Of a stretch of DNA of 64,000 nt, positions 21,288 to 34,050 are shown one piece after another. Below the pieces are notes generated by a model. That model worked only from the letters and a program-made list of their open reading frames with translations, ran no database searches and was not told the origin of the DNA. Source of the DNA: Desulfovibrio sp. Fe33 (GTDB taxonomy: Bacteria; Desulfobacterota; Desulfovibrionia; Desulfovibrionales; Desulfovibrionaceae); NCBI RefSeq assembly GCF_028532725.1, contig NZ_JAQKGU010000002.1, positions 62,001-126,000 of the forward strand, in the 5' to 3' direction. The position numbers were made by a program, and so were the translations under genes. Every line of letters begins with the position of its first letter. The stretch's first letter is position 1.

Positions 21288-21491
21288 TCAGCCGCCGCCG
21301 GAGCCGCAGCCCGATCCCTGGAGGGCGTCCAGGTTCGGGCCGCCTCCGTCGACTTTGGCGCGGCAGGCGCTCATGAGTTTTTCCGTGTCCTTGGAGCCGC
21401 ATTCGGGGCAGGTCACAACCGTGTCCGCACCAAGGACAAGCTCCTCGAATTCGTTTCCGCATTTTTTGCAGGTATATTCATAGATGGGCAT
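21288..21491 (-). CDS. FmdB-family zinc ribbon protein (short form)
   Basis: A 67-residue paralogue of the protein at 1746-1994. It starts [19 protein letters not shown] and has a second CPEC pair, giving the four zinc ligands, then [11 protein letters not shown], which also occurs ([10 protein letters not shown]) in the longer copy. The C-terminus is Gly-rich with one more cysteine (GSGCGSGGG) and lacks the multi-Cys tail. The ATG at 21491 has TGGAGAG upstream. Its start region lies 190 bases from the sigma-54 promoter of the divergent Zra-like operon. The function of the family is not established. Confidence 0.85.
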
Positions 21492-21570: not shown

Positions 21571-21629
21571 TTGCACATTGCACACATTCTGTGCAACAAG
21601 TGTGAAAATAACTGCACAAACAAAGTGCA
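21571..21629 (+). promoter_or_regulatory. Upstream activator sites of the Zra-like operon
   Basis: Two palindromes of identical form TGCAC-N7-GTGCA lie at 21579-21595 (extended to TTGCACA-CATTC-TGTGCAA, 21578-21596) and 21613-21629, their centres 34 bases apart. An extra TTGCACA half-site abuts the first at 21571. The centres are about 121 and 87 bases upstream of the predicted sigma-54 start, the usual range for enhancer-binding activators. The likely binder is the activator encoded at 25231, by inference. Confidence 0.7.
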
Positions 21630-21681: not shown

Positions 21682-21698
21682 TTGGCACGCCCCGTGCT
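21682..21698 (+). promoter_or_regulatory. Sigma-54 promoter of the Zra-like operon
   Basis: TTGGCACGCCCCGTGCT carries the -24 GG and -12 GC with exactly 10 bases between, and matches the consensus TTGGCACG-N4-TTGC at all but one position. Transcription should start near 21708, giving a leader of about 60 bases with TAGGAGG before the ATG at 21770. Confidence 0.85.
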
Positions 21699-21769: not shown

Positions 21770-22297
21770 ATGTCCAAGAAAAACATCACCATCTCCGCAT
21801 TGGCTGCGGCTCTTGTCCTGAGCATGGCGGCTTTCGCGTTGGCCGGTCCCGGCCAAGGCCGCGGATTCTCCGGCTCGTGCGGCGGTCCCGGCTACGGCCC
21901 CGGCGCCATGTACAATCAACTGACCCCCGAGAAGCAGGCCGAGGCCGACGCCATCGTGGACAAATACGAGCCGCAGTTCGAAGCCGTGCGCAACGCTCTC
22001 TGGGCCAAGCGCTCCGTGCTCCAGGCCATGGTCAACGGCGGCAACGCGGATGAAGCGGCCATCACCAAGCTGGTCAACGAGATCTCCGCTCAGCGCGGCA
22101 AGATGTGGGAACTGCGCAAGGCCATGGGCGATGAACTGGTCAAGGCCACCGGCATCGCCGCCTTCGGCGATTGCCCCCGCCGTGGTCCCGGCGAAGGTCG
22201 CGGCCCCTGCTCCGGTAACGATTGCGGTCCCGGTCGCGGCATGGGTCCCGGCCAGGGCATGGGCTCCGGTCAGGGCATGAACCGGGGAATGTTCTAG
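21770..22297 (+). CDS. Periplasmic CpxP/ZraP-like metal-stress protein
   Basis: A 175-residue exported protein. The signal peptide (KKNITISALAAALVLSMAA, cleaved after ALA) is followed by a Gly/Cys-rich start, then a charged helical hairpin (about residues 50-125, LTPEKQAEADAIVDKYEPQF) typical of the LTxxQ/heavy-metal-resistance family to which CpxP and ZraP belong. The C-terminal 45 residues are a Cys-, Gly- and Met-rich tail (DCPRRGPGEGRGPC, then GMGPGQGMGSGQGM). E. coli ZraP is a zinc-binding periplasmic chaperone that also restrains its sensor kinase ZraS. The Cys/Met content here suggests a softer metal such as copper, which is inference. It is first in a four-gene operon behind a sigma-54 promoter. 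Confidence 0.85.
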   Translation: MSKKNITISALAAALVLSMAAFALAGPGQGRGFSGSCGGPGYGPGAMYNQLTPEKQAEADAIVDKYEPQFEAVRNALWAKRSVLQAMVNGGNADEAAITKLVNEISAQRGKMWELRKAMGDELVKATGIAAFGDCPRRGPGEGRGPCSGNDCGPGRGMGPGQGMGSGQGMNRGMF

Positions 22298-22449: not shown

Positions 22450-23268
22450 ATGTTTAGAAAAATCACGTCCCTTACCGCACTTCTTTCTTTTCTCGTCACG
22501 CTGGTCACCAGCGTGATCCTGTATATCGTGCCTGAGGGCCGGGTAGCCTACTGGGCCGATTGGCATCTGCTGGGCATGACAAAAACTCAGTGGGGCGACG
22601 TGCACACCACCGTGGGGACCCTGTTCCTCATCGCTCTGCTCCTGCATGTTTGGCTCAACTGGAAGCCCCTCATTAATTACATGAAGAACCGGGCTCGGGA
22701 ACTGGTGGTCATGACAACGCCCATGATCGTCAGTTTCGTTCTGGTGTTCGTGGTCTTCGCTGGCACGCTCGCCGGACTTCCCCCCATGAGCACGCTGCTC
22801 GATTTCGGCGCGCAGATAAAGGAGGACGCCACCGCGACATACGGCAATCCTCCCTACGGCCACGCCGAGACCAGCCCGCTGAAGAAATTCTGCGGTTTCC
22901 TTGGACTGAACGTGGATTTGGCCTTGAGCGCGTTGCGCGAGGCCGGGTTTGACGAGTCCGTGAACGAGGATTCGCTGATAAAGGACATCGCGCGGTCGCG
23001 CGGAGTGAGCCCTCAGTATATTTACGACATCATCAGGGCCAAGCAGGGCGGCGACCCGTTTTCCCTGATGCCCGTCCAGCCGCCCGAAGGCACCGGCAAG
23101 ATGACGGTCGCCGTGATCTGCACCTCCTACGGCCTGGAGCTGGAGGAAGTCCTGGCGCGGCTTAAGAACGCGGGCATCGACGCCGCGCCGGAAAGTTCCT
23201 TCAAGACCCTGGCCGCGGAGCACGACATGTCTCCCATCGATATCTACAGGATAGTCAAGGGCGAGTAG
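22450..23268 (+). CDS. DUF4405 membrane protein with two helical repeat modules
   Basis: A 272-residue inner-membrane protein. Residues 1-115 carry three membrane helices (about 5-25, 58-75, 92-112) of the DUF4405 fold, related to cytochrome b561-type membrane domains; His residues at WADWHLLG, DVHTTVG and LLHVWLNW would suit haem ligation, which is inference. The cytoplasmic or periplasmic remainder has two copies of a 55-residue helical module (about 143-197 and 214-270), each ending in a motif like LA-EH-D-MSP-D-IYRIV. Similar modules occur in other DUF4405 proteins of sulfate reducers. It sits between the ZraP-like gene and the kinase (7 bases before it), so it probably joins the same response. 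Confidence 0.8.
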   Translation: MFRKITSLTALLSFLVTLVTSVILYIVPEGRVAYWADWHLLGMTKTQWGDVHTTVGTLFLIALLLHVWLNWKPLINYMKNRARELVVMTTPMIVSFVLVFVVFAGTLAGLPPMSTLLDFGAQIKEDATATYGNPPYGHAETSPLKKFCGFLGLNVDLALSALREAGFDESVNEDSLIKDIARSRGVSPQYIYDIIRAKQGGDPFSLMPVQPPEGTGKMTVAVICTSYGLELEEVLARLKNAGIDAAPESSFKTLAAEHDMSPIDIYRIVKGE

Positions 23269-23275
23269 TCGGCAT

Positions 23276-25228
23276 ATGGAAGTCGTTCATCCGGAAGAAA
23301 GGGAGAAGGGACCTCTCGTCGCCCTTGTCCTGGCCCTGATCGTGTTGGGCCTCGGCAGTCTGTACCTGACCTGGCAGTCCATCGCCCAGCAGCGCAAGAT
23401 CGTCGAGGACCACATGATAATGACCGGTAACTCGATTTTGCGCGGCGTGGACAACAACATCTTCCGCATTGCCCGCACCCTGCGAATGGGCGGCCAGTCC
23501 TCGGCTCTTTTCCGGACCATGACGGAAGAGCTTTTCACCGAACTCGCTAAATCCGAGGACATCGAGTTCGTCACCCTGTTCGACCGCGCCGGGCGGCCCA
23601 TCGTGACCTCCGTGAAAAAGGACAATCATCCCATCTTCCAACTGCCCGACGCCGTGGCCGAGGATATAGAGCCCGGCCGGGCCTGGCACGTCATGGCCGA
23701 GGTGGACAAGACCAATGTGCTGCTGTCCGGGCTTCAGGTCCGTTCCGGTATCGCGGTTCTGCTCGGCGTTGACCCCGTCGATGGGGATTCGACGCCGGGA
23801 AGGGGCGGAGCAGGCCGGGGCATGGGGCAGAACATGGGCCCCGGTATGGGACAGGGCATGGGCCCGGGGATGATGTTCGACGAATCGCAATCCCAGGTTT
23901 ACCTGGTGGTGGGGCTCAATGCCGAAAAGCATATGCGCCAGTTCCGCCAGTACCGGCAGGCGGCCACCTATCAGACCGGATACGTCTTTCTCGCCGCCGT
24001 GGTCCTCTGGTCCCTGGCGTTCGCCTACCTGCGCCGCCGGGGCGCGAGCCGCAAGCTCGTCCGCCTGGAGCGGTTCCAGAACAAGCTGCTGGACAACATG
24101 CCTGACGGTCTTGTCACTCTGGCCGAGACCGGCGAGATCCTGGCCGCCAACCGTTCGGCCAGACAGTTGCTTGCGCCGGGCCAGGACGAGGATTCCGGAG
24201 CCGGGGGCGAAAACAAGTCCGATGGGAAAAATGGGAAGTCGGACGGGAAAAAGGGCGGAAAAGCCTCGGGAAAGAAGAGCGGGGAAGTTCCCGCGCCGCC
24301 GCCCGAGATTGTCGGAGGCTACTGGCAGGATTTCGACTTCGGCCTCCAGACCAACGAGAACCAGCCGTCCGGTCCCGTGGAATGGGAGCAGTTCGACTAC
24401 CAGGGCCGACAGTTGGAGATTCTGTTCCTGCCTTTTCAGGAGCAGGACGAGGACGCCGCTCCCGAGCTGGGACAGCGGCTCGTGCTCATCCGCGACCGTA
24501 CCCAGATTCGTTCCCTCGAGGAAGACCTGAACGAGGCAAAGCGGCTGGCGGCCATCGGCTCCCTGGCCGCGGGCGTGGCGCACGAGGTGCGCAATCCGCT
24601 TTCTTCCCTGCGAGGTTTCGCCCAGCTCTTCGCCACCAAGCTCAAGGGACAGGCTCCGCTCGACCAGTACGCCGCAGCCATGGTCCAGGAGGCGGACCGC
24701 CTCAACCGCGTGGTCACGGACCTGTTGTATCTGGCCCGGCCGCGTCAGTTGGACCCGTCCTTCATCGATCTTTTCAAGGTGGGCGATTCCCTCAGGCAGC
24801 TCATGCGTTTCGATTTCGAAGACAAGCAGATCGAGCCCGAGTTCGACTTCGGCCCCGAGCCGGTCTGGGCCGATCCCGATGCGCTCAGGCAGGTCCTGCT
24901 CAATCTCATTTCCAATAGCCTGGATGCCATTCAGGGGTGCGCCGATTGCGACAGGCCCGGCCATGTCAGGCTGGTCTCCATGCGCGGACACAAGGGCGTC
25001 TGGATCATTGTGGCCGACGACGGCCCGGGCATGGACCCCGAAATCCGCGACGACGTCTTCAAGCCGTTCGTCACGGGCAAGAAGACCGGCACCGGTCTGG
25101 GCCTGGCCATCGTTCACAACATCATGCGCGCCCACAAGGGCCGGGTAATCATAGAATCCGAACCCGGGGCGGGAACCGAAATGAAGCTGTTCTTCCCCGA
25201 TCCGCAGCCCCGGGAAGACAAGGAATAG
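23276..25228 (+). CDS. Sensor histidine kinase, ZraS-like
   Basis: A 650-residue membrane kinase. Order: membrane helix 1 (about 13-33), periplasmic sensor (34-230), membrane helix 2 (231-252), PAS domain (about 275-415), dimerisation domain with the phospho-accepting His436 in GVAHEVRNPLSSLRGF, and ATPase domain with N-box NLISNSLDAI, G1 ADDGPGM and G2 TGTGLGLAIV. The sensor has a Gly/Met-rich insert near residues 175-200 (GMGPGMGQGMGPGM) resembling the tail of the ZraP-like protein. The PAS domain is split by a Lys/Ser/Gly low-complexity stretch (about 303-335). It is two bases upstream of its activator gene. The architecture is that of NtrB/ZraS-type kinases paired with sigma-54 activators. 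Confidence 0.93.
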   Translation: MEVVHPEEREKGPLVALVLALIVLGLGSLYLTWQSIAQQRKIVEDHMIMTGNSILRGVDNNIFRIARTLRMGGQSSALFRTMTEELFTELAKSEDIEFVTLFDRAGRPIVTSVKKDNHPIFQLPDAVAEDIEPGRAWHVMAEVDKTNVLLSGLQVRSGIAVLLGVDPVDGDSTPGRGGAGRGMGQNMGPGMGQGMGPGMMFDESQSQVYLVVGLNAEKHMRQFRQYRQAATYQTGYVFLAAVVLWSLAFAYLRRRGASRKLVRLERFQNKLLDNMPDGLVTLAETGEILAANRSARQLLAPGQDEDSGAGGENKSDGKNGKSDGKKGGKASGKKSGEVPAPPPEIVGGYWQDFDFGLQTNENQPSGPVEWEQFDYQGRQLEILFLPFQEQDEDAAPELGQRLVLIRDRTQIRSLEEDLNEAKRLAAIGSLAAGVAHEVRNPLSSLRGFAQLFATKLKGQAPLDQYAAAMVQEADRLNRVVTDLLYLARPRQLDPSFIDLFKVGDSLRQLMRFDFEDKQIEPEFDFGPEPVWADPDALRQVLLNLISNSLDAIQGCADCDRPGHVRLVSMRGHKGVWIIVADDGPGMDPEIRDDVFKPFVTGKKTGTGLGLAIVHNIMRAHKGRVIIESEPGAGTEMKLFFPDPQPREDKE

Positions 25229-25230
25229 CC

Positions 25231-26619
<1,389 letters not shown>

Positions 26620-31828: not shown

Positions 31829-33226
31829 ATGACCAAGATCGTTTCCCGTTTCGCGCCGAGCCCGACCGGGTTCCTGCATATCGGCGGTGCCCGCACCGCA
31901 CTGTTTTCCTGGCTCCTTGCCCGGTCCATGGGCGGGGAATTTCGTTTGCGCATCGAAGACACGGACCGCGAGCGGTCCACCCAGGAGGCCACGGACGCCA
32001 TCATCGACTCCATGCGCTGGCTCGGCCTTGAACACGACGGTGAGATCGTCTTCCAGTCCGACCGTTCCGATCGGCACAACGAGGTCATCGACCAGCTCAT
32101 CGCCTCGGGCCACGCCTACTACTGTCAGTGCAGCAAGGAGGACGTGGACGCCATGCGTGAAAAGGCCATGCAGGAAGGCCGCAAGCCCAAGTACGACGGC
32201 ACCTGCCGCGAAAAGGGGCTGACTTCGGGCGTGGTCCGGCTCAAGGCTCCGCTGGAAGGAGCCACCGGATACAAGGACATGGTCAAGGGCTTCATCTCGG
32301 TGGAGAACTCCGAGATGGACGACATGATCCTGCGCCGCACGGACGGAACGCCCACCTACAACCTGGCCGTGGTGGTGGACGATCACGACATGGGAGTGAC
32401 CCATGTGTTGCGCGGCGACGACCACGTGAACAATACCCCCAGGCAGATTCTCATCTATCGCGCCATGGGTTGGGACGTGCCCGAGTTCGGCCACGTGCCC
32501 ATGATCCTCGGCCCGGACAAGAAGAAGCTTTCCAAGCGCCACGGCGCGCTGTCGGTCATGGAATATGAAAAGATGGGCTACCTGCCCGAGGCCGTGACCA
32601 ACTATCTGGCCCGCTTGGGATGGTCCCACGGCGATCAGGAACTGTTCACCATGGACGAGATGGTCGAATTCTTCACCACCGACGGCCTGGGCAATTCCCC
32701 GTCGGTCTTCGACCTGACCAAGTTCGAATGGGTCAACGGCCAGTACATGCAGAAGGCGGACCCGGACCGTCTGGCCGGGATGCTCTGCGATTTCCTGGCC
32801 CGAGAGGTGGGCGAGGAAGAGGCCAAGTCCGTGACCCGCGAGCAGTTCGCCCGCATCGCGCCCCTGTTGCAGCCTCGGGCCAAGTCCGTGCTCGATATGC
32901 TGGAGCAGGCCCGCCCGTTCATCGTGGACGCCACGTTCCTGCCCTACGACGAAAGCGCCGTGAAGAAATTCCTGACCGACGAGACCAAGCCTCTGCTTGC
33001 GGAGATCGCTGAGCGCATGGAAGGTCTCGACGAGTTCACCGAAGCGTCCCTGGAGGAATTGCACCGGCAGTTCATCGAGGAGAAGGACATCAAGTTCAAG
33101 GTCGTCGCGCAGCCCCTTCGGGTGGCCATCACCGGCAAGACCCAGTCGCCCGGCCTGTTCGAGACCATGATCGTGCTCGGCAAGGAGCAGACGCTGTCCC
33201 GCATCAGAAGGGCGGTGGAGCTGTAG
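31829..33226 (+). CDS. gltX: Glutamyl-tRNA synthetase
   Basis: A 465-residue class I synthetase; it charges tRNA-Glu and so also feeds haem synthesis through glutamyl-tRNA. HIGH-type motif in APSPTGFLHIGGARTAL (residues about 8-24), the GluRS-specific FRLRIEDTDRERS, and KLSKRHG near residue 232. The C-terminal anticodon-binding domain is complete, ending LSRIRRAVEL. Length is normal. In organisms lacking GlnRS the enzyme also charges tRNA-Gln; whether that holds here cannot be told from this window. It is preceded by a hairpin at its ribosome binding site and followed by a terminator. Confidence 0.98.
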   Translation: MTKIVSRFAPSPTGFLHIGGARTALFSWLLARSMGGEFRLRIEDTDRERSTQEATDAIIDSMRWLGLEHDGEIVFQSDRSDRHNEVIDQLIASGHAYYCQCSKEDVDAMREKAMQEGRKPKYDGTCREKGLTSGVVRLKAPLEGATGYKDMVKGFISVENSEMDDMILRRTDGTPTYNLAVVVDDHDMGVTHVLRGDDHVNNTPRQILIYRAMGWDVPEFGHVPMILGPDKKKLSKRHGALSVMEYEKMGYLPEAVTNYLARLGWSHGDQELFTMDEMVEFFTTDGLGNSPSVFDLTKFEWVNGQYMQKADPDRLAGMLCDFLAREVGEEEAKSVTREQFARIAPLLQPRAKSVLDMLEQARPFIVDATFLPYDESAVKKFLTDETKPLLAEIAERMEGLDEFTEASLEELHRQFIEEKDIKFKVVAQPLRVAITGKTQSPGLFETMIVLGKEQTLSRIRRAVEL

Positions 33227-33252
33227 CCCGCCGCACCCGGTTGAAATATCGT

Positions 33253-33288
33253 GAAGGCCCCCGTCGGATATATCCGGCGGGGGCCTTC
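33253..33288 (+). terminator. Terminator between gltX and the SHOCT gene
   Basis: GAAGGCCCCCG and CGGGGGCCTTC with an inner CGGATATATCCG form a long near-perfect stem 27 bases after gltX. The T-run is short (GTTT), and the stem is symmetrical, so it may serve the convergent SHOCT gene as well. Confidence 0.75.
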
Positions 33289-33306
33289 GTTTGGGGTGCT
33301 GCTCCA

Positions 33307-33588
33307 TTAACCGTCGCGCAGTTCGTCCTTCATGGCGAGGAACGTGCTCTTATCGATCTCGCCGGACGCGTAGCGGCGTTTGAGGATTTCCTCCGGCGTT
33401 GCGGATTCCGGAGGTGTGGCTGGTTTGTGGAATAATCGCACCGAGATATATATTATCAGCCCCAGCACCAGGAATTGGATAACTCCCCCGTGGAGGAAGC
33501 TCATTGAGCCGAACCAACCGCCGGACCCTTCGCCGAATCGGAATCCCGGGCCGGAACACCAGGTTCCGAGTGAAGTCAAAAATTCCAT
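33307..33588 (-). CDS. Small membrane protein with C-terminal SHOCT domain
   Basis: A 93-residue protein. Residues 1-35 are Gly/aromatic-rich (WCSGPGFRFGEGSGGWFGS), one membrane helix follows (about 40-58, VIQFLVLGLIIYISVRLF), and the C-terminus is a SHOCT module (TPEEILKRRYASGEIDKSTF), a short oligomerisation helix pair. Such small SHOCT membrane proteins are often found next to metal-resistance and envelope-stress genes, though their function is not known. The ATG at 33588 follows GGAGAG. A sigma-54 promoter lies at 33620-33636, giving a leader of about 22 bases, and half-sites like those upstream of the Zra-like operon lie beyond it, so it may belong to that regulon. Confidence 0.85.
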   Translation of the reverse strand: MEFLTSLGTWCSGPGFRFGEGSGGWFGSMSFLHGGVIQFLVLGLIIYISVRLFHKPATPPESATPEEILKRRYASGEIDKSTFLAMKDELRDG

Positions 33589-33619
33589 GATCTCTCCAGA
33601 GCTTGTTTGCCTGGAAGAT

Positions 33620-33636
33620 AGCACGGACTATGCCAA
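33620..33636 (-). promoter_or_regulatory. Sigma-54 promoter of the SHOCT gene
   Basis: On the minus strand TTGGCATAGTCCGTGCT has -24 GG and -12 GC with exactly 10 bases between, and shares TTGGCA and GTGCT with the promoter at 21682. The predicted start near 33610 is 22 bases ahead of the ATG. Confidence 0.7.
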
Positions 33637-33687
33637 ACGAGTTGTGGAGCTATTTCAGCGTGTTGAGACTAAGACGGGAGAGAAATA

Positions 33688-33737
33688 TTGTGCAGTTGTG
33701 CAATGCTTTGCGTGCGGACTTGACGAAAAATTGCACT
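33688..33737 (-). promoter_or_regulatory. Probable activator half-sites upstream of the SHOCT gene
   Basis: On the plus strand TTGTGCA occurs twice in direct repeat (33688-33694, 33696-33702, the second extended to TTGTGCAA), and TTGCACT lies at 33731-33737. These match the TTGCACA/TGTGCAA half-sites at 21571-21629. The cluster is centred about 85 bases upstream of the predicted start, the same distance as the proximal palindrome at 21613-21629. The arrangement is not a perfect palindrome here. Confidence 0.5.
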
Positions 33738-33773
33738 ATGGGGGGCGGGGAGGGATGGCAGGTCAATAGACGC

Positions 33774-33814
33774 AAAAAAGTTGCCGCCGAAATGTTTTCG
33801 GCGGCAACTTTCGG
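33774..33814 (-). terminator. Terminator after rpmB
   Basis: On the minus strand AAGTTGCCGCCGAAA and TTTCGGCGGCAACTT form a 15-bp stem followed by TTTTTT, 21 bases past the rpmB stop. Confidence 0.93.
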
Positions 33815-33834
33815 CCATCGAAATGTGCAGCACG

Positions 33835-34050
33835 TTATGCTTCGGGCTTCTTGTTGGCCACGGGCTTGACCACTGCGCCGTTGCGGATGCAGCGGGTGCA
33901 GGCCTTGATGCTGACGACCTGGCCGGACTCCAACTGATGACGAACCTTCTGCAGGTTGGGCATGAAGCGGCGTTTGGTCTTGATGTGGGAGTGGCTGACG
34001 TTGTTGCCAGTCTGGGGACCCTTTCCACAAATATCGCAAACCTGGGACAT
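33835..34050 (-). CDS. rpmB: Ribosomal protein L28
   Basis: A 71-residue protein of the large ribosomal subunit. It starts [20 protein letters not shown], the L28 signature, followed by [13 protein letters not shown]. It keeps both cysteine pairs (CDIC near the start and CTRC near residue 53), the zinc-binding form of L28, which has zinc-free paralogues in some bacteria. The ATG at 34050 has AGGAGGT upstream; the much longer frame beyond it is an artefact of the opposite-strand genes. It is monocistronic, divergent from yceD-rpmF-plsX. Confidence 0.97.

Follow-up and report, generated by a model that had tools for sequence, protein, structure and literature searches.

The window, a 64,000-nucleotide stretch of the Desulfovibrio sp. 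Fe33 genome, harbors a gene for a 93-residue SHOCT membrane protein, which is the sole SHOCT match detected by a search of the genome. The protein begins with a periplasmic-type, Gly/Trp-rich segment, continues with one membrane helix, and ends with the two-helix SHOCT domain (PF09851, residues 65-90 of 93), which scores 30.3 bits against a gathering score of 27. In an alignment of 26 sequences, the positions that are invariant or nearly so include W10 and C11 (the near-invariant Trp-Cys of the N-terminus), G34, G43, R51, and residues of the SHOCT motif.

The gene and the features that surround it are as follows.

33307 to 33588, minus strand: SHOCT membrane protein gene, 93 aa, with its ATG at 33588 (PF09851, alignment, and AlphaFold)
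33254 to 33285, strand not given: GC-rich hairpin in the gap between SHOCT and gltX, which converge (sequence reading)
33778 to 33810, minus strand: GC-rich hairpin followed by T-rich sequence, located between SHOCT and its upstream neighbor, rpmB (sequence reading)
33620 to 33636, minus strand: sigma54 -24/-12 element TTGGCATAGTCCGTGCT with GG-N10-GC spacing; the core is present in 29/29 orthologous promoters
33688 to 33703, minus strand: proximal putative activator half-sites TTGCACAACTGCACAA, TGCAC-N3-TGCAC, an arrangement kept in 21/29 orthologous promoters
33698 to 33713, minus strand: degenerate palindrome ACGCA-N6-TGCAC, resembling the GTGCA-N6-TGCAC of zraP promoters (sequence reading)
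33726 to 33737, minus strand: distal half-site GTGCA, lying some 101 bp upstream of -24; most orthologues have one at roughly -98 to -104

The AlphaFold model of the SHOCT protein (mean pLDDT 64.7, pTM 0.28) contains helices at residues 34-54, 65-75, and 80-92. The first is the membrane helix and the other two form the SHOCT domain, while the N-terminal segment is unreliable. The single membrane helix of the original prediction thus agrees with both the sequence and this low-confidence model. A Foldseek search of the model against the PDB returned zero matches at E below 0.001; on account of this empty search and the low model scores, no fold-based function is claimed. The charges that follow the helix point to an N-out, C-in topology. 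Because hairpins flank the gene on both sides, it is read as monocistronic; a terminator scan called neither of the two.

Promoters of the SHOCT gene and the Zra-like operon

The GG-N10-GC spacing that had been proposed upstream of the SHOCT start is indeed seen at 33620-33636, in an element that agrees with the consensus at 9 of 12 positions (9-11 across 29 orthologues). The predicted transcription start leaves a leader of about 21 nt, rather than the 22 bases given earlier, with a GGAG ribosome-binding site. A sigma70-type match on the coding strand was not found in 33200-33860.

Upstream of this element, TGCAC/GTGCA half-sites span 33688-33737, about 51-101 bp from -24. The repeated TTGTGCA of the original prediction is the proximal pair at 33688-33703 read on the other strand, and its TTGCACT is the distal GTGCA element. 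Both motifs are real, and the distance of about 85 bases assigned to them was loose.

The operon of the proposed activator lies 7 kb away on the other strand.

21579 to 21595, plus strand: distal zraP operator TGCACACATTCTGTGCA, an exact TGCAC-N7-GTGCA, of which the genome has two
21613 to 21629, plus strand: proximal zraP operator TGCACAAACAAAGTGCA, the other exact TGCAC-N7-GTGCA site
21682 to 21698, plus strand: sigma54 element of the Zra-like operon TTGGCACGCCCCGTGCT, a strong -24/-12
21770 to 22297, plus strand: ZraP-like periplasmic protein (PF13801, Metal_resist, 57.3 bits against a cut-off of 29.2)
22450 to 23268, plus strand: membrane protein with a DUF4405 domain (domain search)
23276 to 25228, plus strand: sensor histidine kinase (domain and NCBIfam searches)
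25225 to 26619, plus strand: sigma54-dependent response regulator, the proposed activator, with receiver, sigma54-activator, and Fis-type HTH domains

The operon shares with the E. coli ZraPSR system (ZraR is also named HydG) a periplasmic ZraP-like protein, a kinase, a sigma54 response regulator, and a sigma54 promoter at zraP. However, there are salient differences. In E. coli, zraP is divergent from zraSR, whereas all four genes of the window are encoded on the plus strand, with the DUF4405 gene between zraP and the kinase gene. The NCBIfam equivalog cut-offs are missed by ZraP (35.3 vs 200 bits), ZraS (221.4 vs 479), and ZraR (416.5 vs 760); for this reason the system is referred to as Zra-like and not as ZraPSR. 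AtoC and ZraR are the NCBIfam models closest to the response regulator, and it scores well below the equivalog cut-off of each. A small minus-strand gene at 21288-21490, divergent from zraP, encodes what reads by eye as a zinc-ribbon-like protein, and in many relatives a sequence resembling the beginning of this protein is again present upstream of zraP.

Between the nearest half-site and the TTGG there are 51 bp in the SHOCT promoter and 52 bp in that of zraP. The equal distances that had been proposed for the two promoters are therefore borne out, although the figure of 87 bases measures how far the zraP sigma54 site lies from the start of zraP. The exact TGCAC-N7-GTGCA arrangement occurs at two sites in the genome, both at zraP, and is absent from the SHOCT promoter.

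Across the 3.46-Mb genome, the sigma54 pattern TTGGCAYRN5TGCW has 14 sites compared with 4 for the reversed control, and the SHOCT promoter is one of the 14. Three of these carry at least four half-sites within 200 bp upstream, namely, zraP (5), SHOCT (4), and a third site on contig 9 (5); the remaining 11 have 0 to 2. Taken by itself, the SHOCT promoter is moderately unusual against shuffled sequences (p 0.027 for the half-sites and p 0.020 for the sigma54 score), which is suggestive, not decisive. The strength of the case comes from conservation.

Conservation of the promoter elements

The search of the genus covered 36 genomes, with a SHOCT match in 31 and a zraP match in 35. Orthologues of the SHOCT protein, defined by a match reaching query residues 1-4, are present in 29 of the 36; G025 and G028, whose matches start at residues 19 and 10, respectively, are excluded. 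Seven genomes are thus without a SHOCT orthologue, and zraP is present in six of them. Because zraP is found in 35/36 genomes, co-occurrence of the two genes at the genus level is uninformative. The genes lie within 17 kb of each other in 24/29 genomes, usually convergent across the same HDOD-NifU-gltX block. In seven genomes (G031, G013, G015, G022, G020, G035, and G026), a different kinase-like gene is found directly upstream of SHOCT. G007 carries a second, stop-containing SHOCT copy with its own promoter (G007:C1:4036526-4036811).

The SHOCT and zraP promoter sets were picked by protein similarity alone. For zraP, 30 loci were returned from the 35 genomes with the gene, and 29 were used. 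Dropped from the comparison were the G025 match, a paralogue, and the G015 zraP match, which is the second of two tandem copies and has its promoter further upstream. In each of the 29 SHOCT promoters, a sigma54 core is preceded by an 80-bp window with three or more half-sites (mean 4.0). In contrast, none of 496 control windows has three half-sites, and five have two (mean 0.08); these windows were cut from 124 regions lying upstream of nine other genes of these loci. GTGCA among 5-mers and TGCACA among 6-mers rank first in the SHOCT and zraP sets separately, confirming the claim that the two promoters have a half-site in common.

The positions of the half-sites are nearly fixed, at about -101, -78, -67, and -59 for SHOCT and at about -110/-103, -91, -80, and -69 for zraP. 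The composite arrangements differ in frequency: the exact GTGCA-N6-TGCAC is found in 8/29 SHOCT and 19/29 zraP promoters, and TGCAC-N7-GTGCA occurs in 15/29 zraP promoters. The SHOCT promoters prefer TGCAC-N3-TGCAC (21/29), and this difference in arrangement is the chief finding that counts against co-regulation by the Zra-like regulator. A fixed-register matrix trained on zraP separates the SHOCT promoters from controls weakly (AUC 0.70, with 5/29 above the 95% control level), while one trained on SHOCT gives an AUC of 0.92 on zraP, with 17/29 above that level. Such a matrix is a poor test because the operator spacing shifts by 1-2 bp from one zraP promoter to another, and its place was taken by the 5/6-mer ranking and the half-site counts.

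The two genes are also found unlinked. In G016, the SHOCT promoter is kept 1.4 Mb from zraP, though the SHOCT frame is broken. In a second genus of the family, g7, six genomes have a full-length SHOCT orthologue that is separated from zraP by over 0.6 Mb or lies on a different contig. The sigma54 core is present in five of these six promoters, with G081 lacking the -12 GC, and the exact half-sites per 80-bp window number 3 (G195), 2 (G157), 2 (G146), 1 (G175), 5 (G081), and 2 (G207). As read from the sequences, these operators are thinner than those of the first genus. All six contain GTGCA-N6-TGCAC with 0-2 mismatches of 10, each at a chance of less than about 3% by our own calculation. Retention of the promoter elements at these unlinked loci indicates that linkage is not their cause, and confidence is retained despite the thin g7 operators since the main support is the 29-promoter footprint.

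Among more distant SHOCT genes of the family, 13 of the 14 examined have no such promoter, and the link is therefore confined to this SHOCT subfamily. The remaining one, in G061 (genus g27), has a sigma54 site and seven half-sites. The same operator word recurs at the zraP promoters of g7, g13, g20, g28, and g29; it is absent at the ZraP-like genes of g25 and g9 and at the second such gene in g29 (G162). In genus g25, SHOCT-family genes directly adjoin ZraP-like genes, and the sigma54 promoters read at two of these loci are without TGCAC arrays; this pair may be under a different activator.

A looser operator-sigma54 pattern finds a match in 14/15 genomes of other genera, G081 being the one without, and includes false positives, as one match recurring in five g7 genomes reads like coding sequence. 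Genes for secreted-looking, Gly-rich proteins likewise lie downstream of the operator-sigma54 pattern in G063 and G114 and are candidate further members of the regulon.

Probable regulator and possible role of the SHOCT protein

The best overall explanation is that the SHOCT gene likely depends on sigma54 and belongs to the regulon that the Zra-like two-component system controls. The promoter elements, their conservation, and their co-conservation with the regulator are computational observations, from which we infer the signal, phosphorylation, binding, topology, and SHOCT function of the following scheme. An envelope or metal signal would cause the kinase to phosphorylate the response regulator, which would then bind the TGCAC/GTGCA half-site arrays about 55-110 bp upstream of -24. 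The bound regulator would drive sigma54 RNA polymerase at three places: the zraP operon, the monocistronic SHOCT gene, and the third locus, which most likely encodes a small regulatory RNA. The SHOCT protein would be situated in the inner membrane with its Gly/Trp-rich N-terminus outside and its SHOCT domain in the cytoplasm.

The SHOCT protein may have a role in an envelope response, and it is tentatively proposed to act alongside ZraP as a membrane accessory of that response. SHOCT proteins are widespread and their function is not established; the regulator, promoter, and partner genes described here make a role testable. The founding paper on the domain offers hypotheses only, and its test of oligomerisation was negative (PMC3581485). 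A PSP study ties SHOCT-like domains to membrane-stress systems and proposes membrane anchoring (PMC11237479). The protein of the window shares with other PF09851 members the C-terminal two-helix domain, to which the present case adds a specific proposed regulon.

Family-wide, at least 22 of 82 other SHOCT-family entries are located within 2 kb of a ZraP-like gene, compared with roughly 0.15% per match expected by chance (our own estimate). The 82 are entries whose match reaches the SHOCT domain; 19 orthologue entries were counted apart, and matches to larger other proteins and to the second piece of the interrupted G016 gene were left out. This proximity supports a functional pairing of SHOCT with ZraP-like proteins. 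It would also suit an inner-membrane feedback subunit that acts on a kinase and is not an effector, a role compatible with co-regulation and in keeping with the kinase-like gene directly upstream of SHOCT in seven genomes and with a reference title that calls ZraP a repressor of ZraSR. However, the adjoining kinase is not the Zra-like one, and the Zra-like system is present without a SHOCT orthologue in some genomes; feedback is thus considered unlikely.

Irrespective of what the protein does, co-regulation of its gene by the Zra-like regulator is very probable. The regulator is found in 15/15 genomes searched, including G017, which has neither a zraP nor a SHOCT match and carries a promoter of this type elsewhere in the genome. 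The displayed regulator orthologues of g1, g7, g13, g28, and g29 have the sequence ALG[IV]SRRTLQYKLK in common; the G061 match stops short of the HTH. Identity in the HTH region is 59-100% among orthologues and 33-47% for paralogous regulators. Operator and recognition helix thereby appear to be conserved together.

The enteric NtrC site is TGCACC-N5-GGTGCA, and a sigma54-dependent SHOCT promoter could instead be served by a different TGCAC-recognising enhancer-binding protein, e.g., an NtrC-type nitrogen regulator. Related regulators, at least three more of them, are encoded in the genome, and the half-sites are arranged differently in the SHOCT and zraP promoters. Yet the recognition helix differs in the paralogous regulators, the exact TGCAC-N7-GTGCA is confined to zraP in this genome, which would not suit a nitrogen regulon built on that site, and the 14 strong sigma54 promoters include only zraP, SHOCT, and the third site with four or more half-sites, making such an activator improbable. 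That the half-sites are leftovers or chance occurrences upstream of a constitutive gene is highly improbable: the modest single-promoter p value and the 9 of 12 match would allow it, but both elements are present in all 29 orthologous promoters and the region has no sigma70-type match.

With the Zra-like regulator as the preferred activator, the original prediction that the SHOCT gene is its second target gains support from the 29 promoters, the shared word, the unlinked loci, and the recognition helix. The term “second target” is probably an undercount of the regulon.

A third locus and the probable extent of the regulon

The combined pattern TGCACN{48,76}TTGGCAYRN5TGCW matches in 36/36 genomes of the genus, with none for the reversed control. 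In this genome it identifies a third locus with the same promoter type.

G000:C9:77887, outside the window, strand not given: third locus, found as a combined-pattern match

Here, the locus is flanked on one side by a membrane-protein gene downstream of panB and on the other by a histidine kinase gene. The set used for comparison comprises 20 relatives and this genome, picked from the combined-pattern matches. GTGCA and TGCACA are also top-ranked in this set; since the pattern that was used for picking requires one TGCAC and the sigma54 core, the enrichment is partly selection.

A frame of 62-68 aa is found in 18/21 genomes, starting almost at the predicted transcription start such that it looks leaderless, while G017, G010, and G028 have a different transcript at this locus. 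In this genome the frame has 65 aa, and the transcript is predicted to be about 300 nt long, compared with about 150 nt in the second genus. The third-position excess of the frame is 1.14 (15 genomes), compared with 1.71 for SHOCT (15) and 1.74 for zraP (14). This low excess, together with little synonymous change, suggests that the constraint acts at the RNA level. The alignment of the 18 contains an invariant CCTCCT block, a near-invariant second ACCTC block, and a terminator hairpin. Five loci of this RNA type searched against Rfam gave nothing above the gathering score.

Outside the genus, G189 and G195 (g7) and G129 (g29) have the same promoter type followed by CCTCC motifs and, as read by eye, a terminator-like hairpin, with no frame of at least 40 codons before the hairpin. 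The third locus is most likely a sigma54-dependent small RNA, as judged from these sequence features, and the sequences in g7 and g29 are candidate equivalents.

Unlike those of E. coli ZraPSR, the predicted targets of the window's regulator extend to a SHOCT gene and a locus for a likely small RNA. According to PMC8249747 and PMC7657598, the main binding region of ZraR in E. coli is the spacer between zraP and zraSR, to which ChIP-exo adds mgtA; one of the two cites Rome 2018 for 25 further ChIP-seq targets. In Desulfovibrio vulgaris Hildenborough, DVU3381 is listed under “Envelope stress response” with the targets DVU3382-DVU3381 and DVU3384 in a table of PMC4641369, and PMC3333781 mentions it in the legend of an EMSA figure that deals with motif validation. 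DVU3381 resembles the regulator of the window in being a sigma54 two-component regulator with its own kinase operon. Another D. vulgaris regulator, DVU1419, is listed with an ncRNA. SHOCT is absent from the main text of both D. vulgaris papers, and among the literature matches listed, none combines SHOCT with ZraP or presents a SHOCT gene as the target of a Zra regulator.

A parallel, though only in how they work, is provided by the sigmaE- and QseF/GlrR-type regulons, in which an envelope-stress activator drives small RNAs as well as protein targets. The regulator of the window differs from these, and its RNA is a predicted one, with no Rfam match above the gathering score in the five loci searched. 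If the proposal is true, the Zra-like sigma54 regulon would be an analogue of the sigmaE response operating through another sigma factor, and a two-component Zra-like operon would be widened into a regulon that includes a membrane effector and, likely, a small RNA. Envelope-stress control is little studied in sulfate reducers. For the Desulfovibrionaceae, the chances are about even that a sigma54 envelope-stress regulon under a Zra-like regulator combines a periplasmic chaperone operon, a single-pass SHOCT membrane protein, and a CCUCC small RNA able to mask ribosome-binding sites.

In this genus, the third-locus RNA possibly also encodes a peptide. In G002, the promoter and frame of the third locus are present twice, in tandem.
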